Assembly: GCF_030440575.1 (NCBI RefSeq)
Contig: NZ_CP047189.1
Coordinates: 2,418,001-2,482,000 of the forward strand
DNA from: Corynebacterium ciconiae DSM 44920
GTDB lineage: Bacteria > Actinomycetota > Actinomycetes > Mycobacteriales > Mycobacteriaceae
DNA: 64,000 nucleotides
Reading direction: 5' to 3'
A program made the position numbers and the translations under genes. Shown here piece after piece: positions 2,275-63,191 of this stretch. Under the pieces are notes generated by a model. That model did no database searches and was not told the origin of the DNA. It saw nothing but the letters and a program-made list of their open reading frames with translations. Every line of letters starts with the position of its first letter. Positions within the stretch are counted from its first letter, which is position 1.

Positions 2275-2287
2275 GGCGTCGATAAGC
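2275..2287 (+). repeat. Iterated 13-mer GGCGTCGATAAGC (intergenic copy)
   Basis: Exact copy of the window-wide word, 16 bases after the hairpin that follows the YhgE/Pip gene. It is not part of any gene I can support. Confidence 0.8.
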
Positions 2288-2384
2288 GTGAGGCGTGGCG
2301 TGGGGAAGAACTTTATTGCCTGCCACCAGCGAGCACGACCTGGGTGAGCTGCACTAACACTGGTGGGGTGTGGGGTGGATTACG

Positions 2385-2390
2385 TATAAT
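2385..2390 (+). promoter_or_regulatory. -10 element TATAAT of the S9 peptidase gene
   Basis: A perfect TATAAT ends 10 bases before the ATG at 2401, and no Shine-Dalgarno sequence lies between. Transcription should begin at or just before the ATG, giving a leaderless or nearly leaderless mRNA. Confidence 0.75.
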
Positions 2391-2400
2391 CGGCGGAATT

Positions 2401-4551
2401 ATGAGCATCACTGCACCAGCTTCTACGCCGTCGGCGAGCGAGCTCGCCATCATTGAGTCCCCTACGGCCCTCGCGTGGGCGCAGGAATGGACCACCTCCA
2501 CTATCGAGCAGATCGACAGCCGAGCGGGCGGCCGCAGCGCACTACAACGCAAGCTGCGCGCCGCTCTCGATACCGATGCCCGCGTGCCGTATGTGACTCG
2601 GCGCGGGGAGTACCTCTACAACTTTTGGCGCGATAGCGATCATCCGCGCGGGCTGTGGCGGCGCACCAGCTATGAGTCCTATCTCAGTGAGGCACCGGAG
2701 TGGGAGATTCTGCTCGATGTGGATGCCCTCGCCGCCGAGGATGGGCACAGCTGGGTGTGGAAGGGTGCCCATGTGCGGGAACCGGAATGCGACCGAGCCC
2801 TCGTGCGGCTATCGCGCGGCGGCGGGGACGCCACCGTGATCCGCGAGTTCGATATCACCACCGCCAGCTTCGTTGAGGACCGCCCCTTCGAGTTGCCAGA
2901 GGATAAGTCTGATGTGTCGTGGGAGAGCCTAGACACCGTGATCCTGGGAACCAATGTGGGCGAGGGTTCGCTCACCGAGTCCGGCTATCCGGCGCGGGTG
3001 TATCGCTGGCACCGCGGCACCGATCCGCGTGAGGCCGAGCTGCTCTTTAGTGGCGAGCGCAGCGATATCGCCTCTGGCGGCTGGGCGGATCGCACCCCTG
3101 GTTTCGAACGCGTGCTCATCGAGCGCCGGTTGGATATGTTCACCGCGGAGAATTACCTGCTGCGCGAGTCGACGCCGGTACGCATCGACGTGCCCATCGA
3201 TTGCGAGATCATCGTGCACCGCTCCCAGATCTTCCTGCTGCCGCGCACCGAGTTTCACGGCGTACCTGCCGGCGGAGTGGGAGTGGCTGATTTCGACAGC
3301 TATATGCAGGATCCCGCAGCCGCCCACGTGCAGGTGATCTTTAGCCCCACCGAGCACCAGTCGCTGGAAACAGTGCACTTTACCCGCAGCTATGGGCTGA
3401 TTCAGGTATTGGACAATGTCAGCACCACTCTCTACCGCGTGCGGCTCGACGCGCCCGAGGACTGTGTGCGGTTAAAGATTCCGGAGCTGGCCAGCACGAG
3501 CGTGGTGGCCACCTCCCCGATGTCAGAGGATCCGGACATCGGCGAGGAGGTGTGGCTGTACTCCTCCAGCTTCACCACTCCTGATTCGCTGCTGCGGGCC
3601 GACGCCCGCTACCCCGACACCTTCTCCACCGTGGTCAAACGCGCCCCCGAGCAGTTCGACACTTCCGAGATGAGCACCCGGCAATACTGGGCCACCTCGG
3701 CCGATGGCACCCGCATCCCCTACTTTGTTACCGGCCGCCTCGACGAGGAAGCAGACCCCAGTCCCAAGCCCTGCATGGTCCACGCTTATGGCGGTTTCGA
3801 GGTGGCACTGGTGCCTTCCTATTCGGCAGTCACCGGCATCGCTTGGCTGGCCAAGGGGCATCTATTTGTGCAAGCGAACCTCCGCGGCGGCAGCGAGTTC
3901 GGGCCGCAGTGGCACTCCCAAGCCACGAAGCTGCAGCGCCGTAAGGTCTTCGAGGATCACCAGGCCGTGCTCCGCGACCTCGTGGATCGCGGCCTGACCA
4001 CCCGCGAGCAGCTGGCAGTGCGCGGCGGATCCAATGGCGGGCTCCTCACCGCAGTAGCCCTCACCAGCTATCCCGAGCTCGTGGGCGCCGTGGTGAGCGA
4101 GGTGCCCTTGATCGACATGCTGCGCTATCACACCCTGCTGGCAGGAGCCTCCTGGGTGGCGGAATACGGCCACCCTGATATCCCCGAGGAGCGCGCCGTG
4201 ATCGAAAGTTACTCGCCGCTGCAGCGAGTCGTGCCGAACGATGAGACGGCCTATCCCCCGGCGCTGGTTACCACCTCCACCCGCGATGATCGAGTGCATC
4301 CCGCGCACGCCCGCTGGTTTGCTGCTGCGCTCGCCGCCGCCGGCCAGCCGGTGGACTATGTGGAAAACTCTGAGGGCGGCCACGCCGGAGCAGCGGATAA
4401 TGATCAGATCGCGTGGAAGCAGGCCATCGTCTATTCCTGGTTGGAGCAGCAGCTGGGCTGTGCGGAAGCGGCTGGCACCGCAGACACCGATGCGGCTGGC
4501 GCCTCCAACGCTGCCCGTCACGCTGCCCGCGACGCCGCCACGGACAGCTAG
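2401..4551 (+). CDS. Prolyl oligopeptidase family (S9) serine peptidase
   Basis: 716 aa from the ATG chosen because the TATAAT box at 2385-2390 excludes longer starts. The N-terminal ~430 residues match the seven-bladed propeller part of S9 enzymes. The C-terminal alpha/beta-hydrolase domain has GGSNGG with the nucleophile Ser544, the acid in RDDRVHP (Asp629/630) and the catalytic His661 in EGGHAG. Such enzymes cleave short peptides after proline or basic residues, mostly in the cytosol; no signal peptide is visible here. The last ~25 residues are Ala/Thr/Asp-rich and probably unstructured. The M1 aminopeptidase follows 41 bases later with its own promoter, so two peptide-degrading enzymes sit together. 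Confidence 0.9.
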   Translation: MSITAPASTPSASELAIIESPTALAWAQEWTTSTIEQIDSRAGGRSALQRKLRAALDTDARVPYVTRRGEYLYNFWRDSDHPRGLWRRTSYESYLSEAPEWEILLDVDALAAEDGHSWVWKGAHVREPECDRALVRLSRGGGDATVIREFDITTASFVEDRPFELPEDKSDVSWESLDTVILGTNVGEGSLTESGYPARVYRWHRGTDPREAELLFSGERSDIASGGWADRTPGFERVLIERRLDMFTAENYLLRESTPVRIDVPIDCEIIVHRSQIFLLPRTEFHGVPAGGVGVADFDSYMQDPAAAHVQVIFSPTEHQSLETVHFTRSYGLIQVLDNVSTTLYRVRLDAPEDCVRLKIPELASTSVVATSPMSEDPDIGEEVWLYSSSFTTPDSLLRADARYPDTFSTVVKRAPEQFDTSEMSTRQYWATSADGTRIPYFVTGRLDEEADPSPKPCMVHAYGGFEVALVPSYSAVTGIAWLAKGHLFVQANLRGGSEFGPQWHSQATKLQRRKVFEDHQAVLRDLVDRGLTTREQLAVRGGSNGGLLTAVALTSYPELVGAVVSEVPLIDMLRYHTLLAGASWVAEYGHPDIPEERAVIESYSPLQRVVPNDETAYPPALVTTSTRDDRVHPAHARWFAAALAAAGQPVDYVENSEGGHAGAADNDQIAWKQAIVYSWLEQQLGCAEAAGTADTDAAGASNAARHAARDAATDS

Positions 4552-4578
4552 CTGCGCCGATACCGCCGGTGCGCGGAC

Positions 4579-4584: not shown

Positions 4585-4592
4585 GAGCCGCG

Positions 4593-5976: not shown

Positions 5977-7209
5977 ATGCGCGCGCTGTCTCTCGCCACC
6001 ATCTTCGCGGCCCTCTCGGGATTCGTGGTGGTCATCGTGGCCTCTTGGGCCCTGCCCGAGGCCACCAACGCCGACTTCCAAGCATATTGGGGGCTTTTCT
6101 TCGCCCTCGCAGGGCTTATCGACGGCATCACGCAGGAAACCACCCGCGCCACCTCCGCGGTGCGCGCTGGGGCACATCCCCGCTCGGCACGCCCCGTCCG
6201 GCTCGCCGGAGTGGTGGCCATCATCGCCGGTATCACGATCCTCGCCACCGGCGGGGTGTGGATGGGATTTTTGCTACACCACGCCCACCCGGCCGCGATC
6301 GCCCTCTTCGCTATTGGCCTGTCCTCCTATGTGTTCCAAGCATTGCTCTCCGGTGTGCTCTCCGGGCTCAAGCAGTGGGGGGCATACGCCTGGTTGGTGA
6401 CTATCGACTCGGGTGTGCGCATGCTGGCCGCCGGTGTGGCGTGGTGGCGCGGCTGGGGAATCGGCGCCTTCTTACTCATCACCGTCCTAGGCGCCACCAC
6501 TTGGCTGCTCATCATTGCGCTCGCGCCGCAGGCCCGCGCCGCATTAGCCGCACCGGTGGATGTCACCTCGGCTGCGTATCGGCGGGGCGTCTTCTCCGCC
6601 ATGGCGGCCACTGGGGCCTCCGCCGCCCTGATTACCGGCTTCCCGCCACTGGTGCGCATCACCCACGGCACCGGCGATACCACCGCGGACGGGGTGAGCG
6701 TGGCGGCCATCATCATGGCGGTGCTGCTCACCCGCGCTCCCATCCTCGTTCCCACCCAGCGCTTCCAATCCGCCCTAGTGGTGTACTTCGTGGATCGCCG
6801 GGAGCGGCTGCTGCCTGCCTTGGTGACACCACTGGCTGCCGTGGCGGGGATCGGGCTTCTCGGCGCGGCTCTGGCCTGGCTGCTCGGGCCGTGGATACTG
6901 GGCTTGTTCCTCCCGGCCAGCTATGTGCTGCCCGGCTGGCTCCTAGCCGTGCTCACCTTTGCCTCCGCCTGCACCGGCTCGCTCATGATCACCGGCTGCG
7001 CCGCGTTGAGCCACGAACGCCACAGTGTCTATGTGCTCGGCTGGATTGTCGCCACCGCGAGTGCCTTCGCGGTACTTGCGCTGCCGCTACCCCTGAGCAC
7101 CGCAGTGTGCGCGGCGTTGATCCTCGGCCCTCTCATCGGGGTGGCGGTGCACATCATCTCTTTGTTGGGCGGCCACGTCCGGCGGGTAGGGAAGAATGCA
7201 CGGGTCTGA
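5977..7209 (+). CDS. Polytopic membrane protein, flippase-like
   Basis: 410 aa, strongly hydrophobic throughout, with about 11-12 predicted membrane helices and almost no soluble loops. The overall look is that of the MOP/polysaccharide-exporter type of flippase, but I see no diagnostic motif, so that is inference. The ATG at 5977 is preferred because TAGGAT (5964-5969), which overlaps the stop codon of the aminopeptidase gene, ends exactly 7 bases upstream; an open frame extends further upstream but runs through the aminopeptidase gene. A one-mismatch copy of the iterated 13-mer (6114-6126) encodes part of the second helix region. Confidence 0.7.
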   Translation: MRALSLATIFAALSGFVVVIVASWALPEATNADFQAYWGLFFALAGLIDGITQETTRATSAVRAGAHPRSARPVRLAGVVAIIAGITILATGGVWMGFLLHHAHPAAIALFAIGLSSYVFQALLSGVLSGLKQWGAYAWLVTIDSGVRMLAAGVAWWRGWGIGAFLLITVLGATTWLLIIALAPQARAALAAPVDVTSAAYRRGVFSAMAATGASAALITGFPPLVRITHGTGDTTADGVSVAAIIMAVLLTRAPILVPTQRFQSALVVYFVDRRERLLPALVTPLAAVAGIGLLGAALAWLLGPWILGLFLPASYVLPGWLLAVLTFASACTGSLMITGCAALSHERHSVYVLGWIVATASAFAVLALPLPLSTAVCAALILGPLIGVAVHIISLLGGHVRRVGKNARV

Positions 7210-8046: not shown

Positions 8047-8811
8047 GTGAGCGAGCACACCCGACGACACTCATCGCGGGTCCCAGCAGCCACCAACGTC
8101 CTTCGCATCCTAACGCTGCTGACCAGTATCGATGTCCCCGTCTCCGCCGCCCGCATCTACACCGAACTAGAGCTGCCGCGCTCCACGGTGTACCACCTGC
8201 TCACAGTCATGGAAGACGCCGGCTATGTGGTGCGCCTGCCCGAGGAAAAAACCTATGGTTTGGGCGTGGCGGCCTACGCGATGGCCTCGGCCTACACTAC
8301 GCAGCAGCCGCTGGTGCGCGTGGGCGCCCGTCATGCGAAGTTCCTCGCCGAGCTCATCGGCGGCAGCGCCCACATTTCCAAGCTCTCAGGCAGCGATGTC
8401 CTCTATATCTTGGAGGAGCGCAGCAAAAATGCCGCTAGCTTGCTTTTCGACGCTGGGGTGCGCATCCCGGCGTTCATCACCGCATCCGGCATGGCTATGC
8501 TGTCGCTGCGCTCGGAGCAGCAAGTAAAAGCCACCTATTCCACCTCGCCAGTGCCGAACCAGATGAGCTTCCGCGACATCATGGAACAGCTGGCGATCAT
8601 CCGCGAGCGCGGCTGGGCAGAGGAGAACGAACGCATCGACCGCGCTCACCGCTCCTTTTCTGCCCCTATCTTGGATCACCTAGGCCAGCCGGCCGCCGCG
8701 CTCGCGGTGTCCTTCCACATTGATTGCCCCGTCGATCCACGAGAGATCCTCGGCGAGGTTCGCACCCGCGCCGAGCTCATCTCCCACACCGTGTTCGGCC
8801 ACGAGCACTAG
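8047..8811 (+). CDS. IclR family transcriptional regulator
   Basis: About 254 aa. An N-terminal winged helix-turn-helix (AARIYTELELPRSTVYHLL, about residues 33-55) is followed by the IclR effector-binding domain, with the usual small-residue pattern around the ligand pocket (GVRIPAFITASGMAML). Start choice: AAGGAGG (8029-8035) lies 11 bases before GTG 8047 but only 2 bases before the in-frame GTG 8038, so 8047 is preferred. IclR proteins respond to small acids or aromatic compounds and often repress neighbours. The convergent alcohol dehydrogenase 13 bases downstream is a possible target, but no site is visible in front of it. Confidence 0.87.
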   Translation: MSEHTRRHSSRVPAATNVLRILTLLTSIDVPVSAARIYTELELPRSTVYHLLTVMEDAGYVVRLPEEKTYGLGVAAYAMASAYTTQQPLVRVGARHAKFLAELIGGSAHISKLSGSDVLYILEERSKNAASLLFDAGVRIPAFITASGMAMLSLRSEQQVKATYSTSPVPNQMSFRDIMEQLAIIRERGWAEENERIDRAHRSFSAPILDHLGQPAAALAVSFHIDCPVDPREILGEVRTRAELISHTVFGHEH

Positions 8812-15328: not shown

Positions 15329-15341
15329 GCTTATCGACGCC
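15329..15341 (-). repeat. Iterated 13-mer (intergenic copy in a terminator stem)
   Basis: GCTTATCGACGCC on the plus strand. Its last seven bases form the beginning of the left arm of the hairpin at 15335-15382. Confidence 0.8.
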
Positions 15342-20874: not shown

Positions 20875-22785
20875 CTAGACACCGCACTCGCCGGGAATTG
20901 TCTTCTCATCATCGACCCATTGCTGTAAAGCATTCTCAATAGCGGCTATATAGGCGAGCGCACCCTGCGGGACAGGGTGGATGAGATCCTCACGCAGCAG
21001 CTCCGGATGATCCCGCACCGCATGGCACCAATCGGCCACGTACACATTCTCATGCGTCGCAGCTGCGTCCAGCACTTCCTGCTCCGCCTCAGCCATGTAC
21101 CAGCGATCCCCATAGGGCAGCACCAACACAACCACACGATCAGGGCCAATGCTGCGAAGTAGATCCTCCATGAGCCCTTCATAGGCCCCACTCGCCGCAC
21201 CATTCGTGCCGAAGCTCAGCACGACGAAGGGATCGAGGGTGCCTTCGCCGTCCATCCGTTGCACCACCTCGAGGGCTTCCTTGTAGTGCGAAGACACCGA
21301 GGCGCTGACATAAATGCCAGGAAATTCCTCGGCCAGCGCCTCGGAGGAGGCAAGCATCACGGAATCGCCGATGGCACTGATACGATCCCCCGCCGGCATC
21401 ACTCGGTTCTCGTTGTGGAGCTCATCGGCCTGCTCGGCTTCGCGTTGCTGAGCGGCAAGCACGGCGAGGTCTCGTTCGAGCTGGGTCTGCGAGGGACTGG
21501 TGGCTAGGGCAAAAGCGGTGGTGCAGGCGGTGAGCGCCACGACTGCACCTGCCGCTTCCTTGCGCCGCAGACGCTTCTTTTCAATCACCGCGTTGGCGCT
21601 ACGCGTGTACCAGAGCGCGCCGATAACCGCCCTGTAGCCATGGCGACGAATCGGCGTTTCGATGTAGGCGAACGACCACGCCGACAACGGCAGTGACACC
21701 AGCGAGGCGATCAGCCCCACCACAATCGGATGGCGCCCATCTCCCACAGCGCGACCAAGTTGAGTACACAGCACCACCACCGGCCAATGCCACAGATAAA
21801 GAGAAAAAGACACCCGGCCGAGCCAGCGCATCGGAGCCCGGTCAAAGATGCGCGGCACCGGCCCAGCACCCACCACCACGGCCCACACCAGCACAGCGCT
21901 GCTTATCGACGCCACGAGCAAGCCACCGCGGTAGGTAATCGGCGCAGTATCGGCCATGCTCAGCAGCAGCACCCCCAGCACCGCCAAGGCCACCACAGCG
22001 CCACGGCCTAGCCAGCGGCGCATGGTCGGGGTGTAGTGTTCAGTCGGCCACGAGTCGGCCCGACTATCGCCGCGACGGCTTGTGAGCACCACGGCTGCAG
22101 CAGCGCCGATGAGAAGACCATACGCATGGGTGTCCGTGCCGTAATACACGCGCGTGGGATCCACCTCGGGATCGTAGGAGTGGACCATCCACGCGAAAGA
22201 CGCTGCTGCGAGCACCACCAGCACTGCTGCCACACGCCGGACCCGTAGGCGTGTCCGCGTCAGGGCTACAAATAACAGTGGAAACAGCAAATAAAACTGC
22301 TCCTCCACCGCCAGCGACCAGTAGTGGGCGAACACCTGCACGCCACTGTCAGCGAAATACGATTGGGCCCCTGCGATCTGCACCCAGTTATTGACGAAGA
22401 AGAGCGTGCCAAAGAACTGGGAGCGCAAGCCCACCGAAGGATCTCCCCCGACCACACCAGCTAGGGCTGTCACCACCACCAACACCACGATCGCAGCGGG
22501 AAATATCCGGCGGATGCGGCGCAGCCAAAAATCCTTCAGGTCAACGCGCCCAGTTACCGCGCGTTCCCGCACAAGCAAGGAGGTAATGAGAAACCCCGAC
22601 AGCACAAAGAAGATATCCACTCCAAGATACCCGCCAGGCAGCAGACCTCCGAAGAAGTGGTACAGCACCACGGAACCCACAGCGAGCCCGCGAAGACCAT
22701 CAATGGCGCCCACCTTGCGTACCGTGAATGCGTGTCGTGACGGCGAGGTAGCGCCGGCCGCGCGCACGGTGGAGGAGGAAGACAT
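20875..22785 (-). CDS. Acyltransferase-3/SGNH O-acetyltransferase (OatA-like)
   Basis: 636 aa. Residues 20-380 are an acyltransferase-3 membrane domain with about ten helices, including DGLRGLAVGSVVLYHFF with the conserved His and LGVDIFFVLSGFLIT, plus WSLAVEEQFYL. After a basic linker and one more helix comes an SGNH esterase domain outside the cell: GDSVMLASS (nucleophile Ser) and DLIHPVPQG with the Asp-His pair. OatA-type proteins move acetyl groups across the membrane onto peptidoglycan or other wall glycans; the acceptor here is unknown. Start: ATG 22785 has AGAGAGG five bases upstream, so the GTG two codons earlier is disfavoured. Residues around 21901-21913 are encoded by an iterated 13-mer and use a rare ATA codon. 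Confidence 0.9.
   Translation of the reverse strand: MSSSSTVRAAGATSPSRHAFTVRKVGAIDGLRGLAVGSVVLYHFFGGLLPGGYLGVDIFFVLSGFLITSLLVRERAVTGRVDLKDFWLRRIRRIFPAAIVVLVVVTALAGVVGGDPSVGLRSQFFGTLFFVNNWVQIAGAQSYFADSGVQVFAHYWSLAVEEQFYLLFPLLFVALTRTRLRVRRVAAVLVVLAAASFAWMVHSYDPEVDPTRVYYGTDTHAYGLLIGAAAAVVLTSRRGDSRADSWPTEHYTPTMRRWLGRGAVVALAVLGVLLLSMADTAPITYRGGLLVASISSAVLVWAVVVGAGPVPRIFDRAPMRWLGRVSFSLYLWHWPVVVLCTQLGRAVGDGRHPIVVGLIASLVSLPLSAWSFAYIETPIRRHGYRAVIGALWYTRSANAVIEKKRLRRKEAAGAVVALTACTTAFALATSPSQTQLERDLAVLAAQQREAEQADELHNENRVMPAGDRISAIGDSVMLASSEALAEEFPGIYVSASVSSHYKEALEVVQRMDGEGTLDPFVVLSFGTNGAASGAYEGLMEDLLRSIGPDRVVVLVLPYGDRWYMAEAEQEVLDAAATHENVYVADWCHAVRDHPELLREDLIHPVPQGALAYIAAIENALQQWVDDEKTIPGECGV
21901..21913 (-). 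repeat. Iterated 13-mer inside the acyltransferase gene
   Basis: Read on the coding strand as gcG-TCG-ATA-AGC, encoding Ala-Ser-Ile-Ser. Use of ATA, a rare Ile codon in a GC-rich genome, suggests the DNA word itself is being kept. Confidence 0.75.
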
Positions 22786-40558: not shown

Positions 40559-41352
40559 GATGAGGGGCACCCCCGTGCTTTGTTGATGATCGAGTACGTC
40601 CACAGAACGCCGCCGCAGATGAGAGCGGTTCCCACGAGCAGCAACACCCCGCCGAGGGAGGTGCCACTGAGAAAGGCCAGTGGCGCGGCTCCCATGAGGC
40701 TGCCGAGTCCCACCCCGAGCGCCGGCAGCAAGCTGAGGATCACGGCGGTGGCCATGGGTCCCTGCAGTGCCGCCTGCACGGAGCTGTCATGGCGCTGTGC
40801 CTGGTCGAGTTGCTGCTGAGTGCGCTCTAAAAGGCTCGCCAGCCCGATACCGTGGTGTTCGCTGAGCTGCCACAGCGCTCCGATCCGCGTGAGTTCTGGC
40901 GCCTCGGTGGCACCTATCAACGCTGGGGCTGGGCTGCGGCCGCTGCGGATGCGGTTGACGGCCGCTGCGAGTGGATGCGTGATTGGAGTTGAGGACACAG
41001 CGTCGGCAGCGGTGGCGAGGGCGTGTTGCAGGCTCGCTCCGGCACGGATGCTTGCTGCACACACTCCAGCGCACTGTCCAGCTGCGGCGGCTGCGCGCTG
41101 TCGGCGGCGTCGACGATGCATATCCCGCAGCACATAGCCGATGGTTGCCGCGGCCATAAGCGCGGCGATGCTGAGTGTGACTGCCCGGAGCAGGACGATG
41201 GCGGTGGCCGCAAGCATCACACCGATGACCCACGGGGTACCGCCGCGTCGTGCCGTAGCGCGATGGTAGATGCGTCTGGCTGGGCGTGCACCGGTGGCAC
41301 ACAGCACCGCCCCGGCGAGAGCGAGCAGGGTTAATGGCGGCGCGGTGATCAT
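40555..41352 (-). CDS. tadB: TadB-like type II/IV secretion F-domain protein
   Basis: 265 aa. Two N-terminal helices, a GspF-type helical domain (CAGVCAASIRAGASLQHALA, ELTRIGALWQLSEHHGIGLASLLERTQQQL) and two C-terminal helices (MATAVILSLLPALGVGLGSLMG, GTSLGGVLLLVGTALICGG). This is the larger platform protein. ATG 41352 overlaps the TadA stop as ATGA. Confidence 0.84.
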   Translation of the reverse strand: MITAPPLTLLALAGAVLCATGARPARRIYHRATARRGGTPWVIGVMLAATAIVLLRAVTLSIAALMAAATIGYVLRDMHRRRRRQRAAAAAGQCAGVCAASIRAGASLQHALATAADAVSSTPITHPLAAAVNRIRSGRSPAPALIGATEAPELTRIGALWQLSEHHGIGLASLLERTQQQLDQAQRHDSSVQAALQGPMATAVILSLLPALGVGLGSLMGAAPLAFLSGTSLGGVLLLVGTALICGGVLWTYSIINKARGCPSS

Positions 41353-42492: not shown

Positions 42493-43566
42493 TCACCACT
42501 GCTGTCCCATAGGATGGGCCTGCTCGAGATCGGTGCAGATATCCGCTACGGCCCGCCCCAGCACGCGCGGGCATCGGCCGCGCAGCCCGCCCTGCTCGAG
42601 TTGTTTAGCCACTGCAGTGGTGAAGCGAAATTCCGCGCTGATGGTGATCCCAGCAACGGTCTCCACCTCTGCAGCACTTAAGGAGGCCCAGGTGCGGGCG
42701 ACGGTGACAAAGCTCAACGGCACGTGACTGCGACGCAATTCAGACAGTTGGGCACTGATCGCACACACCGCACGCACTTCTCGGGGCACGATCACCACGA
42801 GATGGTCAAGATAGGCCACAATGTCTGGATCGAGGGCATCAGCCCGGGGCAAATCCACCACCGTGTAGCCCTCTTCTCGTAGGCTGCGCAGCGCACCCAA
42901 AATGGTCTCGGTAGTAAGCGGGGCGGCATCAAAACGATCCCTGCTGCTGCTCACACAGCTCGCTGCGGCGGTAGGCAGCACCTCACGCACATCGGCGGCG
43001 CCGAGGCTGCCCTGGCTAAAATCCAGTTCATCCCATCGTGGCCCTGGCTCGTCCTCCACCCCGAGTAGCAGGTCCATTCCCCCGCTGGGGTCTGTACCCA
43101 CCACCGTGGTGGGGGCGAGTTCTGACAGCTGCACGCCCAGCGCCGCGGCAAAGGTACTCACCCCGCAGCCGCCGGTGCAGCCAGTAACTCCCACCACCAG
43201 CCCTTCTTCGGTGCGCACGGCCCGCCCGAGATCAGTGAGTAGGCCTGCTGCCTCGGCCGGCAAAGCATAGGCCTGCTCGGCGTGGATCTTCATGGCCAGC
43301 TCAAAGTTCACCGGCGTCTGATCTGCGGCGATGAGAAAGACTTTTTCTCGGCGCGGCTGTGGCCGCTCCAGCAAGAACTGCGCGCCTTCCTCGTCCACCA
43401 CGATGGCAAAAGCGGAATGATGGTGGCGCGCCAGTTCCTCGGCGGTAGAAACCTCCACCACCTGACGCGCAGTGGCGGCGGCGATGTGAATCGCCTCTGG
43501 GTGGACGAGAGGGTCGAAGACTGCGATAACAACGGGGGCGTGGGCCTGATCACGGGTGCTGCTCAT
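42493..43566 (-). CDS. CpaE-like/septum-site-determining MinD-family protein
   Basis: 357 aa. A receiver-like N-terminal part (about 1-115) is followed by a MinD/ParA-type ATPase fold: VVGVTGCTGGCGVSTFAAALGVQL is a deviant Walker A in which the signature lysines are not evident, then VVGTDPSGGMDLLLG and VVDLPRADALDPDIVAYLDHLVVIVP. It corresponds to Rv3660c (Ssd) of M. tuberculosis and to CpaE, which places Tad machinery in the cell. The missing P-loop lysine suggests weak or no ATPase activity. First gene of the Tad operon. Confidence 0.83.
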   Translation of the reverse strand: MSSTRDQAHAPVVIAVFDPLVHPEAIHIAAATARQVVEVSTAEELARHHHSAFAIVVDEEGAQFLLERPQPRREKVFLIAADQTPVNFELAMKIHAEQAYALPAEAAGLLTDLGRAVRTEEGLVVGVTGCTGGCGVSTFAAALGVQLSELAPTTVVGTDPSGGMDLLLGVEDEPGPRWDELDFSQGSLGAADVREVLPTAAASCVSSSRDRFDAAPLTTETILGALRSLREEGYTVVDLPRADALDPDIVAYLDHLVVIVPREVRAVCAISAQLSELRRSHVPLSFVTVARTWASLSAAEVETVAGITISAEFRFTTAVAKQLEQGGLRGRCPRVLGRAVADICTDLEQAHPMGQQW

Positions 43567-43723: not shown

Positions 43724-44080
43724 TTAGACCAGCACACACACCATGGTCACGCAGGAGAGCACCCACATGCCTAAGCAATTCACCCTGAACGCCATGCCGG
43801 TGGCCCCGGCGCGGATATGCGCCCAGATGGCGCAACTGAAATAGGCGATCACTCCAGCGGTGGCAGCAGCCGCGAGACCGGGAATCCAGATACCTGCGAT
43901 CAATCCGACCGCCGCGAGGAGCTTCACCACGATGAGCACCCACCACCAGTCCTCGGGGAAATGCACACTCCGAAGGCACTCCGCGATGAATGCGGGTGGC
44001 CGGAGCGAAAGGATGGCGTCGACAAGCAACACGGCTGCGAGAAACGCTGGTGCGATCCACCAAGTGGGGACGAGAATCAT
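43724..44080 (-). CDS. DoxX-like small membrane protein
   Basis: 118 aa with four membrane helices and almost no loops; the EDWWWVLIVVKLLAAVGLIAGIW segment matches the DoxX-like family. GGAG lies 8 bases before the ATG. It starts 11 bases after the TetR stop, so it is the second gene of a TetR-controlled unit and the likely target of that regulator. The function of this small DoxX subgroup is unknown; it often accompanies TetR or PadR genes. Confidence 0.8.
   Translation of the reverse strand: MILVPTWWIAPAFLAAVLLVDAILSLRPPAFIAECLRSVHFPEDWWWVLIVVKLLAAVGLIAGIWIPGLAAAATAGVIAYFSCAIWAHIRAGATGMAFRVNCLGMWVLSCVTMVCVLV
44015..44027 (+). repeat. Iterated 13-mer inside the DoxX-like gene
   Basis: GGCGTCGACAAGC on the plus strand; on the coding strand CTT-GTC-GAC-GCC encodes Leu-Val-Asp-Ala in the first helix. 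Confidence 0.75.
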
Positions 44081-48198: not shown

Positions 48199-48231
48199 GG
48201 CGCTTATCGACGCCACCTCGCCGCAAGCGCC
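48199..48231. terminator. Hairpin between convergent hydrolase and marP genes
   Basis: GGCGCTT (48199-48205) pairs with AAGCGCC (48225-48231). The stem starts directly after the hydrolase stop codon and shares bases with an exact iterated 13-mer. No T-run. Confidence 0.5.
48202..48214 (-). repeat. Iterated 13-mer between convergent genes
   Basis: GCTTATCGACGCC on the plus strand, beginning inside the left arm of the hairpin at 48199-48231. Confidence 0.8.
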
Positions 48232-48240: not shown

Positions 48241-49431
48241 CTAGCCGAGAACGCAGGCTCCGGTGTCTACTGGCCCGTCGAGCGCTTCCGCATCGGCCAC
48301 GTGCTTGTCCACTTCGGCGCGAGTGAGGGCATAGCCGGTGTCGGTGTCATCGGCAGCCGCGCCAAAGACCACTCCCATCACGTGGCCGTCATCGCTCAGC
48401 AGCGGACCGCCGGAGTTGCCCTCCCGGATGGTTCCGCGCACGGTGTAGACCTCGCGATCTACGCGCTGGTCGGCATAGATGGTGGGGCTGTTAATGAGCA
48501 AAGAGTCGATGATACGGGCCGGAGCGGCTTCGAAGGGGCCGGACTCGGGAAAGCCCATCACCACGGCATCATCGCCGCTCTGGGCGGGCGCCTCTGTCCA
48601 AGGCAGCGGATCCAGCCCTAAACCATCGGTGGCGAGAATCGCTATGTCGATCACGGGGTTGTAGTACACGACTCGCGCGGTGTGATAGCCCACGACGGTA
48701 TCCAGATCCACTTCGTTAGTTCCGGCCACCACGTGGGCATTCGTCATAATTCGATCTGGGGCCACCACGAAACCAGAGCCCATGAGCCGCCGCTGGCATT
48801 GAGGGGCTTCGCCGATGATGTGCACCACCGAGGGGCGTACCCGTTCCACCATTTCCACATCGGCAACCTCGATGCGAGGCGCCTGCACCTGCTCTGGGCG
48901 GGGGTTTTGGAAGGGCGAGGTGATCATGGGCATGCCCGAATCATTCAGCAGCACCCGCAGCTTGTCGGTGAGCGCCGCCAATGCGCGCGGGGAGTGGGTA
49001 TCCACTTGTTGCAGCACCGTGGAGTTACGCACCCCCTTCGCCAGCCGCGAGTTGCCCTCTGCCAGCGGGATCGCCAGCAGCCATGCCACGATGAGCACCA
49101 CCAGCACCTGGAAGACAGCGCCGGCGAAGGAATCTACCCGGCGCGCCTGCGGGTGGGTCACCTTCTCCCGCAACGAGGCCCCTGCGGTACCACCGATGAA
49201 GTAGCCGATACAGGCGGCGATCACCAGCACCGTCACCGCGATCACCACACGCAGCTGGTTGCTTGCGGTTTGCTGCATGGCCAGCGGGGCGAGGGCGAAG
49301 CCGATGACGAGCCCGGCGGCCACACCAATGAAGGAAAACATCGAGCCCACGATGCCGTGGCGCCACCCGTCGACAAGCGCAAAGAGCAAGAGGAACACCA
49401 CGATGGCGTCCACTATCACGCTGGGATCCAT
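48241..49431 (-). CDS. marP: MarP-type membrane serine protease
   Basis: 396 aa. Residues 1-160 form a CvpA-like domain with four membrane helices (SVIVDAIVVFLLLFALVDGW at the start). A trypsin-like protease domain outside the cell has His233 (TNAHVVAG), Asp262 (VIDIAILAT) and Ser340 (EGNSGGPLL). This matches M. tuberculosis MarP (Rv3671c), needed for resistance to acid and oxidative stress. It is the last gene of a minus-strand unit with a Nudix, a thioredoxin-like and the nth gene, the same order as in mycobacteria. Confidence 0.92.
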   Translation of the reverse strand: MDPSVIVDAIVVFLLLFALVDGWRHGIVGSMFSFIGVAAGLVIGFALAPLAMQQTASNQLRVVIAVTVLVIAACIGYFIGGTAGASLREKVTHPQARRVDSFAGAVFQVLVVLIVAWLLAIPLAEGNSRLAKGVRNSTVLQQVDTHSPRALAALTDKLRVLLNDSGMPMITSPFQNPRPEQVQAPRIEVADVEMVERVRPSVVHIIGEAPQCQRRLMGSGFVVAPDRIMTNAHVVAGTNEVDLDTVVGYHTARVVYYNPVIDIAILATDGLGLDPLPWTEAPAQSGDDAVVMGFPESGPFEAAPARIIDSLLINSPTIYADQRVDREVYTVRGTIREGNSGGPLLSDDGHVMGVVFGAAADDTDTGYALTRAEVDKHVADAEALDGPVDTGACVLG

Positions 49432-49478: not shown

Positions 49479-50204
49479 CTAGAAGTGGCGTTCATTGTTA
49501 CGCGACGCGGCCAAGGTGGCGCGCAAATCGTACACGCGATCCTGCGCCCACGGCCGAGCCCAACCGGCCTGGGCTAAAGCTGCACTCAGGATACCGCCCG
49601 TGAAGCCCCACACAATGTAGCCACGACACCTAAATGCTGGGCCGCGCCAGGAACCATGACCCACCATGAGCCGATTATCCGGCTCAACGAGCTCTGCGAT
49701 GGGGGCGCGGAAGACATCGTCGGTCTCCTCAAGACTCACCGCTGAGACCTCGGCGGGGGCGTGCTGATAGGCGATCACCGGATATACCGGATAGCCAGTG
49801 CGGCGCACATGCACTTCCTCCATTTGGGCCAAGGGGGTCACCGCTGCCCGGTTTAAGCCCGTCTCCTCGTGAGCTTCGCGCAGCGCACAGTCCACCGCGT
49901 TGACATCGCTGGGATCCACGCGGCCGCCGGGGAAGGCAATCTGGCCGGAGTGGTTGCGCATCCGCGGCGAGCGGTGTGTAAGCAGCACGCTAGCGCTCGG
50001 CGGAAGCTGAGGGGGCTGGGAGGGGCCGTCGATAAGCATGAGCACCGCGGCCTGTCGATCCCGTTGGGGGCCGGCATACCGGGCTCGATCGGACAACGCC
50101 CGATGCACATGCCCGCCATCCACCGCGCGAACCAGCGGCTGCAGCCACACCGGCGCCGCCTCAGGACGCAGGCGGGTATTCGCCCCAGGGGAATCAGAGA
50201 ACAT
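49479..50204 (-). CDS. Nudix hydrolase, CoA pyrophosphatase (NudL-like)
   Basis: 241 aa. The sequence around the Nudix box reads SGQIAFPGGRVDPSDVNAVD then CALREAHEETGL. The extra upstream RSPRMRNHSGQIAFPGG (the UPF0035 pattern) marks the CoA-pyrophosphatase group that splits CoA into phosphopantetheine and ADP. The ATG at 50204 overlaps the preceding TGA by one base (TGATG), so translation is coupled to the thioredoxin-like gene. Equivalent to Rv3672c. Confidence 0.87.
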   Translation of the reverse strand: MFSDSPGANTRLRPEAAPVWLQPLVRAVDGGHVHRALSDRARYAGPQRDRQAAVLMLIDGPSQPPQLPPSASVLLTHRSPRMRNHSGQIAFPGGRVDPSDVNAVDCALREAHEETGLNRAAVTPLAQMEEVHVRRTGYPVYPVIAYQHAPAEVSAVSLEETDDVFRAPIAELVEPDNRLMVGHGSWRGPAFRCRGYIVWGFTGGILSAALAQAGWARPWAQDRVYDLRATLAASRNNERHF

Positions 50205-53878: not shown

Positions 53879-54340
53879 TTAGGCCCGCTTTTCGACGACA
53901 AGCTCAACCTCAACCGGCGCCCCCAGCGGCAGTTCAGCCACCCCGACTGCGGAGCGCACATGCTGTCCTGCCTCACCAAAGATCTCGCCGATGAGTTCCG
54001 ATGCCCCATTGACCACAGCGGGCTGAGCGTGAAAGCCTTCCGCGCTGGCCACAAAGCCCGTAATTTTCAGCACCCGTGCCACATTATCGATGCCCACCAC
54101 GGAGTCCACGGCGGCGAGAGCATTCAGCACCGCACAGCGGGCACAGTCCTGAGCCTGCTCGGCGGAGACGGTGTCACCCACCTTGCCGGTGATTTTCAGC
54201 TCGCCATTAACGAAGGGCAGCTGCCCCGAGGTCCACACCTGGTTTCCCACCTCGGCAGCGGGAATATAAGCGGCCACCGGCGCGGCGACCTCCGGCAGAG
54301 TGATACCAAGCTCCTGCAGCCGAGCGCTGATGCTAGTCAT
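53879..54340 (-). CDS. RidA family protein
   Basis: 153 aa. The YjgF/YER057c/UK114 fold is visible: VWTSGQLPFVNGELKITGKVGDTVSAEQAQDCARCAVLNALAAV and ending in RSAVGVAELPLGAPVEVELVVEKRA with the active-site Arg. RidA proteins hydrolyse reactive enamine/imine intermediates from PLP enzymes. Equivalent to Rv3678c. Its start overlaps the end of the DUF4177-like gene by 8 bases. Confidence 0.87.
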   Translation of the reverse strand: MTSISARLQELGITLPEVAAPVAAYIPAAEVGNQVWTSGQLPFVNGELKITGKVGDTVSAEQAQDCARCAVLNALAAVDSVVGIDNVARVLKITGFVASAEGFHAQPAVVNGASELIGEIFGEAGQHVRSAVGVAELPLGAPVEVELVVEKRA

Positions 54341-57501: not shown

Positions 57502-57944
57502 CTCAGTTTGGCTTTCACTACAGCGGAGATGCGGGCACCGTCGGCTTGGCCGGCGGCCTGCGCTGTGGCGGCCTTCATTACCGCACCCATCTCGCGCATG
57601 GAGGACGCGCCGGTGTCGGCGATGCAAGAATCGACCAGTTCCTCCAGCTCGGCGTCACTGAGCTGGGCTGGCTGGTAGCTCTGTAGCACGGCGATCTCGG
57701 CTTCTTCGGTGGCGGCGAGTTCGTCTCGGCCGGCATCACGATAGGTTGTGACGGATTCACGGCGCTTCTTGATTTCGCGGGCGATGACGGTGAGGATGTC
57801 GGCGTCGACAAGCTCGGAGCCAGAAGAGGTCTTCTCGTACTGCAGCGCAGAGAGCAGCTGGCGGATGGCATTGGAGCGCTGCTTATCGCGGGCTTTCATG
57901 GACTCTTTGAGATCGGCGCGGATCTGTTGTTCTAATTCGCTCAT
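57498..57944 (-). CDS. GatB/YqeY domain protein
   Basis: 148 aa. A complete YqeY fold: SELEQQIRADLKESMKARDKQRSNAIRQLLSALQ at the start and SSMREMGAVMKAATAQAAGQADGARISAVVKAKL at the end. The domain resembles the tRNA-binding tail of GatB and may bind tRNA; the role of stand-alone YqeY is unclear. Convergent with ponA. Confidence 0.88.
   Translation of the reverse strand: MSELEQQIRADLKESMKARDKQRSNAIRQLLSALQYEKTSSGSELVDADILTVIAREIKKRRESVTTYRDAGRDELAATEEAEIAVLQSYQPAQLSDAELEELVDSCIADTGASSMREMGAVMKAATAQAAGQADGARISAVVKAKLS
57801..57813 (+). repeat. Iterated 13-mer inside the yqeY-like gene
   Basis: GGCGTCGACAAGC on the plus strand; on the coding strand CTT-GTC-GAC-GCC encodes Leu-Val-Asp-Ala. Confidence 0.75.
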
Positions 57945-59057: not shown

Positions 59058-60296
59058 TCAACCCAGCTCGCCCGCCAGCAGCCGCCGCACCACGGCGGTG
59101 AGCACTTCCACCCCGGCGAGACAGTCGGCATCACTGGTGCACTCGGCCTCGTTGTGGGAGATCCCATCCACACTGGGTACAAAGAGCATCACGGTGGGCA
59201 CGATCTCTTTAAGGTTCGTGGAATCATGCCCGGCCACGGTGTACACATCATGCGGCTGGTAGCCGCATGCGATGGCCGCAGCCCGGCCCAGCTGCACTCC
59301 CGCCTCCGGATAGGGGTTGAGCGCCCACTCATGCGTGGCCTCGAGGGTGATGGTCGTGCGAGATTCCTCCGCGGCCTCGGCGGTGATCTCGTGCAGCCGC
59401 TCGTGGGCGGCGGCGAGGATCTCGCTGTGTGGGGAGCGTAGATCCACGTTAAACACGACCTCGCGGGCGATCGTCACTGGGGAGTTGGGCTGCACGCTCA
59501 GCTGCGCCACGGAGCTATGCAGCTGTCCGGCTGGATACTCGGCGCACAACCGGCGCACCGCGGCGATCACCACGGCGGCCCCCACCAGAGCGTCGCGCCG
59601 ATCCTCCATGAGCGTGGATCCGGTGTGCCCCTGCTCGCCGCGCACCACCGCGCGATACTTCCTCGCGCCCCAGGTGGCGGTGACTACCCCGATCTGGGCG
59701 CCTACCTGCTCGAGGGTCTTTCCTTGTTCCACGTGAATCTCCGCATAAGCGCAGATATCAGGTGGGGTGTGCGAGCCGGCTGGGCCGGACCAGGCTGCCC
59801 GGTCGAGCGCCTCCCGCACGCTCACCCCCTGCAGGTCGGTGGCGTTGAGAGCGTCGACAAGCGGCAGCGTCCCACAAAACACTCCGCTGCCCATCATCGA
59901 TGGGGTGAAGCGGGAGCCTTCCTCATTGAACCAGTTGACCACCGCGAGATTCCGGCGCGGCGGATTCTCCTCACAGCCAGCGCGCAGGCGCTCAGCCGCG
60001 TGCGCAGCGGCAAGCACCCCGTAGGCTCCGTCGAAACGCCCCGCCCGGGGCTGGGAGTCAAGGTGCGAGCCCACCAGCACATAGGGTGCGCCGGGCTGGA
60101 ATTCGAAGAGGCCGAACTGGTTGCCGATGGCATCGTAGATCACCGTCGCCCCCATGGCACCCAGCAGGTGCTCCAGCCATGCGCGAGCCTCGCAGTCCGC
60201 AGCTGATGCCGCCTGCCGCTCCACCCCGCCGGCGGGCGTGGAGCCGATGCGGGAGAGCTCGGCGAAATCCTTAAGGAAAGGGGAGTTCCTCGCCAT
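59058..60296 (-). CDS. M20-type amidase (N-carbamoyl-L-amino acid hydrolase/allantoate amidohydrolase)
   Basis: 412 aa, cytosolic. Di-metal site: GSHLDSQPRAGRFDGAYG (His, Asp), NWFNEEGSRF (Glu-Glu), YAEIHVEQG (His) and GISHNEAE (His). The GHDSTNL segment contributes to substrate binding. The group hydrolyses N-carbamoyl amino acids, ureidoglycine or allantoate, freeing ammonia. It starts 21 bases after the amidohydrolase stop, so the two form one operon, likely under the divergent PucR protein, which fits a purine/ureide or amide nitrogen pathway. An AGCGTCGACAAGC near-copy of the iterated word lies at 59850-59862. Confidence 0.87.
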   Translation of the reverse strand: MARNSPFLKDFAELSRIGSTPAGGVERQAASAADCEARAWLEHLLGAMGATVIYDAIGNQFGLFEFQPGAPYVLVGSHLDSQPRAGRFDGAYGVLAAAHAAERLRAGCEENPPRRNLAVVNWFNEEGSRFTPSMMGSGVFCGTLPLVDALNATDLQGVSVREALDRAAWSGPAGSHTPPDICAYAEIHVEQGKTLEQVGAQIGVVTATWGARKYRAVVRGEQGHTGSTLMEDRRDALVGAAVVIAAVRRLCAEYPAGQLHSSVAQLSVQPNSPVTIAREVVFNVDLRSPHSEILAAAHERLHEITAEAAEESRTTITLEATHEWALNPYPEAGVQLGRAAAIACGYQPHDVYTVAGHDSTNLKEIVPTVMLFVPSVDGISHNEAECTSDADCLAGVEVLTAVVRRLLAGELG

Positions 60297-60317: not shown

Positions 60318-61937
60318 TTAGATCTCGCCGTAGACCACGTCGCCGCCCAGGATCGTGGCCTGCACCTGCAGCTGTCCGATCTCTTCAGACGCCACCTCGA
60401 GCGGGTTTCGATCAAGCAGCACACAATCCGCCAGCTGGCCCGGCATGATCTGGCCCTTAAGCCCCGCCCAGCCGGTGGCCGCAGCCGAACCGGCGGTGTA
60501 GGCGTAGAGGGCTTGTTCCGCGCTGAGCCGCTCGTTCTCGCCATACACCTGTCCAGATTGGGTGGTGCGCAGCACGAAGGACTCGATGGCCTTCAAAGGC
60601 GCCCCCTCAGCCACTGGCCGATCCGAGCTGCCGGGCAGGATGAGCCCGGCGTCGAGAAGCCTGCGGGCGGGGTAGGAAAACGCGGCGCGCTCGGTGCCCA
60701 ACACGCTCGCCATGGAATCGCCGAAGGCGTGCACGAATCGGGGCTGCGGCACAATCACAATGGGACGCCCGCCGATGGTGTCCAGTTGATCGTTACGCAC
60801 CACCCCGCCGTGCTCGATGCGGTGGGGAATCTCCGGCGCGCCGAAGGTGTCGATCGCCTCGGAGAGAATGGAGATGGACAGATCCACTGCAGCGTCGCCG
60901 AGAGCGTGCAAGGCCAGCGACCAGCCCGCCGCCGCGGCCCCTAGGGCCTGGCGGCGCATGTGCTCCGGGTCGCCCTGGAAGTAGCCGTGGTGGGGGCAGC
61001 ACACATAGTCTTGCGTCATCGCCGCCGTGGTGCCGAGAATGGAACCATCAGTGAACATCTTGGTGGGGCCGATCTGCAGCCACTCATCACCCAGACCAGT
61101 GCGGATGCCGCCATCCAGCCCGTAGCCGAAGCCATCCGACTCGTGGCCGCCGATCTCATGCAGTGCATCAATAGTGGGCATGATCTGCATTCGGGTATGA
61201 CGCGTGGCCTGCTGATAAGCTCCGATCTCGCGCGGGCTATGCCCGATCCAGCCGCCAGCCACCCCGCAATCCGTGACCGAGGTGAGCCCCTCCTGCAGGT
61301 AGTGCGCGGTGGCCGTCTCAATTGCGGCGGCGATCTCGGCGTTGGACTCCGGCAACAGCACCTGCTGAATCAAACGCATGGCGTTCTCATCCAACAACCC
61401 CGTAGCCTGGCCGGTACTGTCGCACACCACCTCACCGCCTTCCACCTGCGGCGGATTCTGCGGATCTACTCCTGCGGCACGCAGCGCCGCGGTGTTCACC
61501 GTGTTCGCATGCCCCGAGTTGTGCTTGATCAACAATGGCCGACCACCGGCAGCTCGGTCGAGCTCAGCGATCCCCAACTCCCCGTCCTTGAGGGCGCTGG
61601 GGCGGAAACCCGAGGCAATCACCCATTCCTCAGCACCGAGGCTGGCGGCCGCCGCAGCCACCTTCTCATAAACATCGCTCGTGGTGTGTACCGCGGAGAG
61701 GTCCACCTCCGAAAGCGTCTGGCCAAACCAGACCGTGTGGGCGTGGGCGTCATTGAAACCAGGGACGATCGTTGCCCCACCGGCGTCGATACGGCGGTCG
61801 GCGGGAAGCCGCCGCGCAGCATCATCCACCGCCACGAAGCGACCCTGCATCATCGCCACCGCCGTGGCGACCGGCCGCGCCGGATCCTGAGTGAGGATCG
61901 TGGCATTCTCTACCAACACAATCGGGCTATGGCTCAT
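60318..61937 (-). CDS. YtcJ-like metal-dependent amidohydrolase
   Basis: 539 aa, amidohydrolase-3 family. Metal ligands: FNDAHAHTVWFGQT (HxH), HALGDAAVD, RIEHGG and the final Asp in GSSDRPV. N-terminal beta-sandwich IVLVENATILTQDPARP and C-terminal LKGQIMPGQLADCVLLDRNPLE are typical. YtcJ-type enzymes deformylate or open cyclic amides; the substrate is unknown. GAGGAGG lies about 10 bases before the ATG. Transcribed with the M20 gene and divergent from the PucR gene 123 bases away. A near-copy of the iterated word (GGCGTCGAGAAGC) is at 60648-60660. Confidence 0.87.
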   Translation of the reverse strand: MSHSPIVLVENATILTQDPARPVATAVAMMQGRFVAVDDAARRLPADRRIDAGGATIVPGFNDAHAHTVWFGQTLSEVDLSAVHTTSDVYEKVAAAAASLGAEEWVIASGFRPSALKDGELGIAELDRAAGGRPLLIKHNSGHANTVNTAALRAAGVDPQNPPQVEGGEVVCDSTGQATGLLDENAMRLIQQVLLPESNAEIAAAIETATAHYLQEGLTSVTDCGVAGGWIGHSPREIGAYQQATRHTRMQIMPTIDALHEIGGHESDGFGYGLDGGIRTGLGDEWLQIGPTKMFTDGSILGTTAAMTQDYVCCPHHGYFQGDPEHMRRQALGAAAAGWSLALHALGDAAVDLSISILSEAIDTFGAPEIPHRIEHGGVVRNDQLDTIGGRPIVIVPQPRFVHAFGDSMASVLGTERAAFSYPARRLLDAGLILPGSSDRPVAEGAPLKAIESFVLRTTQSGQVYGENERLSAEQALYAYTAGSAAATGWAGLKGQIMPGQLADCVLLDRNPLEVASEEIGQLQVQATILGGDVVYGEI

Positions 61938-62047
61938 AAAACTGCTGCCTCCTCGGGTAGTGCATTCGATGCAGCTAGCCTAGTGCCACAACGCCTCTGC
62001 CTACCCCAACACACCCACAACGGTGGTTTTGGCTAGCAGCAGACCAG

Positions 62048-62053
62048 TACAGT
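62048..62053 (+). promoter_or_regulatory. -10 element TACAGT of the PucR gene
   Basis: TACAGT ends 7 bases before ATG 62061, favouring it over the in-frame GTG 62055. Confidence 0.6.
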
Positions 62054-62060
62054 TGTGCAT

Positions 62061-63191
62061 ATGCACGATGAGCACTGGCACAGCCTCCTCACCCAAGCGC
62101 GAGACACAGTCACGATCATCGTGGACGAGTTCATCGCCACCTTCCACAACCAAGGCGGCTACTCCGCTCATAGTGTCAGCGAGGAGGAGCTACGCGACAC
62201 CGCGGAAGACATTCTCAGCATGTTCATCGACGCCCTCCTCGGCCGCGTCGACGAGCAGCACTTCCGCTCCCACGCCGAAGCCCTCGGCCAGCGCCGCGCC
62301 AGCCAAGGCATAGCGCTCACAGCGCTTATCGACGCCATCCAACTGGACTTCGTTGTGCTATGGACCAGGCTGAGAGAACTTGCCGGCGCCGAAGCCATGC
62401 CCGCCCTCGTGGACAACGTGGAAAAACTCCACCGCCTGGTCTCCCACTACAGCTTCTGGGTGCGCGATTCCTATGTGCGCCGCACCGCCGAATCCGCCCA
62501 TAACCTTCGCCTCGCCAATCTCCGCTTCGTGGACCGGCTCCTATCCGCCAGCCGTATCGGCCCGCTCGGGCTTACGGAAATCGCCGACGCCCTCGGCCTC
62601 GATGTCAACGGCCACTTCCACTGCCTGTGCGTGCACCCCAACGACGCCCACCACGCCCGCACTGTCCTAGAGCCACTCAGTTCCAAAGGCGCAACCTTCG
62701 AGCACAACTACCACGGGATGTACGTGGTGTTCTGGGCCACCCACACCAGCGTGGACACCGCCACTGTTCGCAGCGTCCCCGGGCTCATCTTCCGCGATGT
62801 CCCCGGCCTGGCCGGGGTACGCACCGCCGCCCACTCCGCGCCCAGCATTTTCAAATCCACCGGGGCACCCACCCAGCTCGCCGACGCTTCCGAGCTACGC
62901 TGGGCCGTCGCCGGCGACGCCCTCAGCAGCCTCGACAACGGAGAGATGACCACCTACACCGCCGCGCTGGCCGGGCTGCGGGACAAAAAGGACCCCAGCA
63001 TCGATACGCTCTGGGCCTATCTACGCACCGGCTCCCTGAAAGAGGCCTCCGAGATTTCCTTCTGCCACCGCAATACCGTGATCAACCGGCTGAAACTGAT
63101 CAAAAACCTCACCGGTCTCGACCCCACCGTTCCCGTGGACGCCACCCTGCTACTCCTCGCTCTTCAGCGCCGCAGCACCGACACACCCTAA
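62061..63191 (+). CDS. PucR/CdaR family transcriptional regulator
   Basis: 376 aa. An N-terminal helical domain (about 1-140) of the RsbRD-like kind is followed by a GGDEF-like variable region. The C-terminal PucR helix-turn-helix reads IDTLWAYLRTGSLKEASEISFCHRNTVINRLKLIKNLTG. PucR-type proteins usually activate purine or amino-acid catabolic genes in response to a pathway metabolite. The divergent amidohydrolase-M20 operon and the downstream transporter are the obvious targets. An exact iterated 13-mer lies at 62324-62336. Confidence 0.87.
   Translation: MHDEHWHSLLTQARDTVTIIVDEFIATFHNQGGYSAHSVSEEELRDTAEDILSMFIDALLGRVDEQHFRSHAEALGQRRASQGIALTALIDAIQLDFVVLWTRLRELAGAEAMPALVDNVEKLHRLVSHYSFWVRDSYVRRTAESAHNLRLANLRFVDRLLSASRIGPLGLTEIADALGLDVNGHFHCLCVHPNDAHHARTVLEPLSSKGATFEHNYHGMYVVFWATHTSVDTATVRSVPGLIFRDVPGLAGVRTAAHSAPSIFKSTGAPTQLADASELRWAVAGDALSSLDNGEMTTYTAALAGLRDKKDPSIDTLWAYLRTGSLKEASEISFCHRNTVINRLKLIKNLTGLDPTVPVDATLLLLALQRRSTDTP
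62324..62336 (-). repeat. Iterated 13-mer inside the PucR gene
   Basis: GCTTATCGACGCC on the plus strand; CTT-ATC-GAC-GCC encodes Leu-Ile-Asp-Ala, the same four residues as the copy in holB. Confidence 0.75.

Follow-up and report, generated by a model that had tools for sequence, protein, structure and literature searches.

A genus-wide family of short words with dialects in Corynebacterium, a candidate DNA uptake sequence

A 13-base word that recurs throughout a 64,000-nucleotide stretch of the chromosome of Corynebacterium ciconiae DSM 44920 (contig NZ_CP047189.1, positions 2,418,001 to 2,482,000; the whole of this stretch is referred to below as the window) belongs to a genus-wide family of words which occurs in several dialects and is peculiar to Corynebacterium. 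Judging from genome comparisons, this word is probably a DNA uptake sequence, which in natural transformation marks DNA as self. The original prediction, made from the letters of the window, had put forward such a role as an idea, and it is now supported in part: the dialects, the concerted change of sites between species, a distribution free of strand polarity and an excess of copies in spacers speak for it, while the presence of com and tad genes does not separate word-rich from word-poor species. To our knowledge, uptake words are known only in Neisseriaceae and Pasteurellaceae, and Corynebacterium would be the first case outside the Proteobacteria. With somewhat less assurance, we lean towards the view that sequence-specific uptake evolved here a third time, independently, and that it would operate via a Tad pilus across the mycolate outer layer; dialects that differ between related species would then hinder gene exchange within a genus of common human commensals.

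Abundance, core and placement of the word

The nine exact copies first noticed in the window are all present at the places and on the strands originally given, and none arose in 100 dinucleotide shuffles; the six copies reported with one mismatch are also present, and the 15 together compare with an expectation of 0.24. The excess extends to the complete chromosome of 2,584,365 bases, where the exact word occurs 306 times (139 forward and 167 reverse) and the reversed word, used as a control, does not occur. The wider family pattern GCRTCGRNAAGC has 552 copies in the same genome, with 13 for its control.

Most of the finer results derive from a sample of 464 kb, made up of 20 stretches of 20 kb together with the window. 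The word heads every list of over-represented 9- to 14-mers in this sample, among words seen at least eight times, and for CGTCGATAAGC an order-5 Markov model predicts 1.9 occurrences where 69 were observed. The core proper is CGTCGANAAGC, because position 7 varies (T 69, C 26, A 15 and G 9 among 119 copies) and the GG ahead of the core is preferred but not fixed. These 119 copies amount to about one per 4 kb, and the window holds 17 of them, nine on the plus and eight on the minus strand (Table 1). For the 12-base word GCGTCGATAAGC, one-base neighbours lie near background, save at core position 7 and at the first base, and the word is therefore sharp. Copies located in spacers carry a G-rich flank extending up to about 14 bases upstream of the core and are followed by RY after it; no conserved element was found past about 25 bases around the copies in the sample.

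Genes and spacers were assigned with a simple codon-based gene caller written for this analysis. On this basis, 72 core copies fall in genes, 46 in spacers and one straddles a boundary, in DNA that is 81% coding. Within genes, 55 copies are antisense and 17 sense, compared with 1.1 and 1.4, respectively, in 100 synonymous-codon shuffles, that is, about 2.5 against the 72 found; 50 of the 72 share one frame, which reads x-Leu-[Ile/Val/Phe/Leu]-Asp. Among the 40 copies in gaps of at most 800 bases, the density is highest between convergent genes (1.61 copies per kb, nine copies), lower in co-directional gaps (0.71, 24 copies) and lowest in divergent gaps (0.46, seven copies).

The spread along the DNA is as even as had been claimed from the window, with a mean of 5.11 and a variance of 2.39 copies per 20 kb over 21 stretches, and each of the 20 sampled stretches holds between 3 and 8 copies. 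Both orientations and both genes and spacers are occupied, again in agreement with the earlier description. A comparison of strand bias with the origin and terminus of replication had also been suggested at that stage, and it revealed no replichore polarity: with the two chromosome arms told apart by their GC skew, one has 24 forward and 33 reverse copies and the other 29 and 33, giving 57 against 62 copies by replichore. Exact copies are similarly balanced over the 242 genomes of the genus, with 10,680 forward and 10,857 reverse.

Range, dialects and concerted change of sites

The genus is taken here as the grouping used by the genome collection, which comprises 242 genomes including that of C. 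ciconiae (G000). Counts in related species, proposed with the original prediction, showed at least 20 copies of the exact word in 150 of them, at least 100 in 92 and at most four in 63, the maximum being 521. The 92 genomes in which the exact word has fewer than 20 copies are referred to as word-poor. The wider pattern GCRTCGRNAAGC was run on 79 of these; it has at least 100 copies in 24 of them, 40 to 99 in nine and fewer than 40, the cut that we chose for background, in 46, with the highest control at 24. Outside the genus, in 149 genomes of the family and order representing 55 other genera, counts of GCRTCGRNAAGC are near control; the highest is 71, where the control is 97, and the highest ratio noticed is 24 to 7. 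Loci taken outside Corynebacterium, 1.36 Mb in total, contain the pattern six times and its control 12 times. At least 120 stretches of viral contigs carry the word, each of the 80 listed being a single match, although such numbers are uninformative without a chance expectation.

The dialects include GGCGTCGAYAAGC, GGCATCGGCAAGC, GCATCGAYAAGC and others. A frequent spelling among word-poor genomes that are rich in GCRTCGRNAAGC is GCATCGGNAAGC, with 464 copies in G143, 422 in G169 and 279 in G006, and a single copy in C. ciconiae, such that the dialects are nearly exclusive. The form CATCGRNAAGC occurs 755 times in Corynebacterium sp. ACRPS (control 4), compared with 80 in its relative ACRPO, 108 in C. 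yonathiae and 97 in C. kefirresidentii (controls 5, 5 and 9). Eight genomes, one of them word-rich and the others word-poor, were sampled at 100 kb each. The related words that emerged include GGCATCGGCAAGC in G143 and G006, and words of the CATCGAYAAGC and CATCGGNAAGC types in G063 and G083; no clear related word was seen in the samples of G014 and G030.

In G015 and G130, which are basal and belong to the 46 word-poor genomes with background counts, other frequent words share GGCGTC with the family and continue into A- and G-rich tails, and they are possibly further dialects. In G015, GGTGGCGTCG occurs 21 times in 116 kb, against 1.8 expected and two for the reversed control, and in G130, GGCGTCAATAA occurs five times in 56 kb against 0.02 expected. 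The word GGTGGCGTCG also has six copies in G233 and four in a 28-kb sample of G010, and its reversed control is absent from both. No related word stood on top of the lists of over-represented words of G030, G070 and G233. A putative dialect of G014, GCGTCCACTAT, was dropped since four of its five copies belong to longer repeats that are identical in two pairs. In the sample of G033, words including GCGGATGGAGC and GGAGCTGCTGG are frequent; they may stem from a repetitive coding region.

The positions of the sites are conserved between close relatives. The original prediction had named a lack of such conservation, and likewise a count no higher than composition and codon use predict, as results that would refute it, and neither occurred. 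The closely related Corynebacterium sp. 74A, whose LepA is 98% identical to that of C. ciconiae, was compared with the window (82.4% identity where aligned). Thirteen of the 17 core copies in the window are alignable and 12 of these keep all ten fixed positions, whereas the retention of random words is 0.196; in the reverse direction, 14 of 22 copies in sp. 74A are alignable and 12 of them are kept. Between ACRPS and its relatives, which differ in dialect, the eight family-fixed positions are kept at eight of 13 aligned sites in C. kefirresidentii (background 0.21) and at nine of 12 in C. yonathiae (background 0.20), and between the latter two species at 13 of 14 (background 0.41).

Moreover, the retained sites tend to be respelt. 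A-spelt sites of ACRPS read G at four of five retained positions in C. kefirresidentii and at four of six in C. yonathiae, whereas for CATCG outside the family the change to CGTCG, with the other four bases kept, was found at 11 of 155 and 12 of 140 places, respectively (7 to 9%). Around lepA, three of three retained sites in C. yonathiae and two of two in ACRPO show this switch as well, one site being common to both comparisons. Thus, the sites stay put and tend to change spelling together, as is expected when one recogniser changes. The TadA of ACRPS is 98% identical to that of G006 and both share the spelling, and the spelling of ACRPS may consequently reflect an old split rather than a fresh, independent change.

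Uptake and the alternatives

Corynebacteria possess a mycolate outer layer, and DNA would therefore have to be caught at the cell surface, as in both known groups with uptake words. We propose that a surface protein which reads the sequence, with ComEA and the minor pilins of the Tad/Flp pilus as the likeliest candidates, would bind double-stranded DNA bearing the word; that the pilus would pull this DNA through the mycolate layer; and that ComEA and ComEC would pass it inward for recombination by DprA and RecA. Tagged DNA would then be taken up and recombined more often, which would let the word build up and persist at hundreds of sites, and a drift in receptor specificity would cause the sites to change together and give rise to dialects. 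There is an old dispute as to whether uptake words exist through selection for the DNA of kin or through a drive from biased uptake. If the uptake reading is correct, Corynebacterium provides an independent replicate of such words, with another phylum, envelope and pilus and with clear dialects; many of its species would transform naturally, partners in gene exchange would become predictable, and donor DNA supplied with the word could serve as a simple tool for laboratory genetics of harmless species.

Candidate genes for this machinery are present in C. ciconiae. The window carries the gene order ssd-tadA-tadB-tadC-flp-tadE-tadF (Table 1), comEA, encoding helix-hairpin-helix and SLBB domains, and comEC lie at 660 kb, and dprA lies at 1.63 Mb. 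Loci were also collected from the genus, 20 around TadA and 20 around ComEC, so that these two genes are present by choice. The identity of TadA to that of the window is 55 to 63% in the ten word-rich loci and 42 to 47% in eight of the ten word-poor loci, the exceptions being G014 (60%) and G233 (58%), and in trees of TadA (21 rows) and of a neighbouring helicase (20 rows) the divergent word-poor genomes fall in one clade. A tblastn search of the 20 Tad loci left Ssd unseen in three, TadE in five and TadF in five, all of them in word-poor genomes. The absence of TadF was dropped as a lead, as a plausible TadF open reading frame (ORF) is present in each of the four genomes inspected (G010, G014, G130 and G233), the fifth being G033.

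The ComEC of C. ciconiae has 481 amino acids (L018:9091-10536), and the Competence membrane domain is its sole domain match. Open frames of comparably short length occur in many word-rich species, while several word-poor species have frames of 650 to 810 amino acids, with word-rich G019 (741 amino acids) and G149 (697) as exceptions. In G166 a stop codon breaks the gene (C1:543012-543797), and in G001, G072 and G255 it appears as two matches, yet 28, 67 and 174 exact words are kept there, as if competence had been lost recently.

The DNA uptake sequence (DUS) of the Neisseriaceae has its own word, unrelated in sequence to the present one, and is associated with type IVa pili, in place of which a Tad pilus locus is found here. 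In the Pasteurellaceae, the uptake signal sequence (USS) has informative flanks beyond its core, comparable to the G-rich upstream flank described above. FtsK orienting polar sequences (KOPS) and Chi are strand-polar chromosome words and, like the present word, are short, frequent and genome-wide; they differ from it in that no replichore polarity was found here. The dialects, concerted change, lack of polarity and spacer excess fit uptake sequences better than such chromosome-polarity motifs. Taken with the sharpness of the word, its even spread and its conserved positions, they resemble the uptake sequences of Neisseriaceae and Pasteurellaceae more closely than any other class of word that we considered, although the missing terminator pairs and gene-end bias set it apart from these. 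The present word has in common with DUS and USS that hundreds of copies lie on both strands, in genes and in spacers. According to PMC3630211, the ComP-read DUS is likewise a short, genome-wide, over-represented word with dialects around a constant part; it belongs to another phylum and, in contrast to the DUS, inverted pairs are rare here. The USS AAGTGCGGT is also unrelated to the core CGTCGANAAGC, but the excerpts seen of PMC2346458 describe a spacer excess (65% of USS lie in ORFs of Haemophilus influenzae, where coding DNA is about 86%) and a favoured orientation in reading frames, as found here, and subtypes between species are a further likeness. In an actinobacterium, Micrococcus luteus, tad genes are needed for transformation and, as in Corynebacterium, tad and com genes are both present; the abstract of that work (PMC4322843) mentions no uptake word, and competence in Corynebacterium is putative.

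A number of observations weigh against an uptake role. The machinery does not predict the word, since com and tad genes are also kept in word-poor species: comEC occurs in 241 of the 242 genomes, word-poor ones included; comEA is present in all 20 com loci, ten of which are word-poor; and matches to TadB, TadC and Flp lie downstream of TadA in all 20 Tad loci. The ATPase profile (T2SSE) has a match above cut-off in 125 of 131 genomes, and it has none in two word-rich drafts, G021 (247 copies) and G226 (388). Gene presence thus failed as a predictor. Moreover, in the trees of 20 and 21 genomes, word-poor and word-rich ones fall largely in separate clades, and any association with genes, including the difference in Tad, is therefore confounded by descent. 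A search for a receptor through uneven divergence between ACRPS and its relatives of the G dialect found no protein that stood out. The A/G rule is not absolute, with two A sites of ACRPS staying A in a G-dialect relative, three of its G-spelt sites staying G, and the base differing at two of 13 retained sites between C. kefirresidentii and C. yonathiae. Inverted matches of at least seven bases are no commoner near copies than at random places, either overall (7 of 119 against 109 of 1260) or for spacer copies alone (3 of 46 against 19 of 235), which lends no support to the hairpin sites of the original prediction, and there is no pull towards gene ends, with 13, 17, 18, 14 and 11 of 73 copies in successive fifths of gene length; terminator-like pairs and a bias to gene ends are both reported in the excerpts on Pasteurellaceae USS. 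Copy numbers are several-fold below the 2245 to 5918 per genome given for Neisseriaceae dialects in the part of PMC3630211 seen. Finally, among the matches listed from open papers (titles and beginnings of abstracts), there was no account of the word, of competence or of uptake sequences in Corynebacterium; the passages of PMC5217627 that name the genus concern CRISPR-related words in three species.

The strongest alternative, although we consider it unlikely, is a chromosome-organising or segregation site which is bound by a nucleoid or condensin-associated protein and is evenly spread to structure the chromosome. The even spacing, the conserved positions and the conserved core with its G-rich flank in spacers would suit such a site; the lack of strand polarity and of regional clustering in the sample, the concerted change of dialect between related species, the near-control counts beyond the genus and the background counts in 46 of 79 word-poor genomes argue against it. 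Regional sites of the matS/parS type were rejected for lack of clustering. Marginally less likely still is a Chi-type recombination signal or gene-conversion hotspot, read by a recombination helicase-nuclease. Hundreds of short copies at fixed places that change together would fit any drive from biased recombination, but Chi sites are biased to one replication strand, and a core of 11 bases with near-background neighbours is longer and sharper than the known Chi words; strand-polar motifs of the KOPS/Chi type were rejected for want of replichore polarity.

We regard as improbable a self-mark by which the chromosome escapes a defence nuclease: such a tag could likewise show dialects, an even spread and conservation, but known modification marks are far denser than one per about 4 kb. 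A shade less credence still can be given to the reading of the copies as terminators, other regulatory sites or pieces of a dispersed repeat, for which the spacer excess and its maximum between convergent genes can be cited; most copies lie in genes, however, divergent spacers have the lowest density, inverted pairs are not enriched, leaving the idea of terminator pairs unsupported, and the lack both of a longer conserved element and of a hairpin led us to reject dispersed repeats of the repetitive extragenic palindrome or miniature inverted-repeat transposable element type. A by-product of codon and oligonucleotide use, finally, would account for the single frame shared by most in-gene copies, but it is effectively refuted by the Markov expectation, the synonymous shuffles and the 46 copies in spacers.

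Copies and neighbouring genes in the window

The positions of the core copies and of the Tad genes are given in Table 1, in which exact copies of the 13-base word are labelled as word copies.

Table 1. Core copies and Tad genes in the window (positions numbered from its first letter; spacers as assigned by the gene caller)
Feature	Position	Strand	Remarks
Word copy	2275..2287	+	Spacer, though inside a longer ORF if GTG at 2263 is taken as its start
Core copy	6114..6124	-	Antisense in gene
Core copy, A at position 7	8442..8452	-	Antisense in gene
Word copy	15329..15341	-	Spacer between convergent genes
Word copy	21901..21913	-	Sense in gene
Word copy	29628..29640	-	Sense in gene
Word copy	30561..30573	+	Antisense in same gene as copy 29628..29640
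Core copy	33734..33744	+	Antisense in gene
Word copy	44015..44027	+	Spacer
Word copy	48202..48214	-	Spacer between convergent genes
Core copy	49368..49378	+	Antisense in gene
Core copy	50027..50037	+	Scored as spacer, yet a 242-amino-acid ORF covers the site
Core copy	53887..53897	-	Sense in gene
Word copy	57801..57813	+	Antisense in gene
Core copy	59852..59862	+	Antisense in gene
Core copy, G at position 7	60650..60660	+	Antisense in gene
Word copy	62324..62336	-	Antisense in gene
TadE/G-like minor pilin, called TadF	39137..39451	-	PF13400 20.2 bits, below cut-off of 22.3
TadE-like minor pilin	39451..39801	-	Named by gene order and alignment; without Pfam match
Flp-like major pilin	39776..39979	-	Pfam DUF4244; Flp is our reading
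TadC (T2SSF)	40010..40570	-	Profile match
TadB (T2SSF)	40555..41361	-	Profile match
TadA/CpaF-type ATPase (T2SSE)	41349..42485	-	175.9 bits
Ssd/TadZ-like protein, proposed part of uptake machine	42493..43566	-	No Pfam match; name presumed from gene order

The window also encodes a bacterial small signal recognition particle RNA (20730-20824) and two tRNA genes (29286-29358 and 58932-59005).

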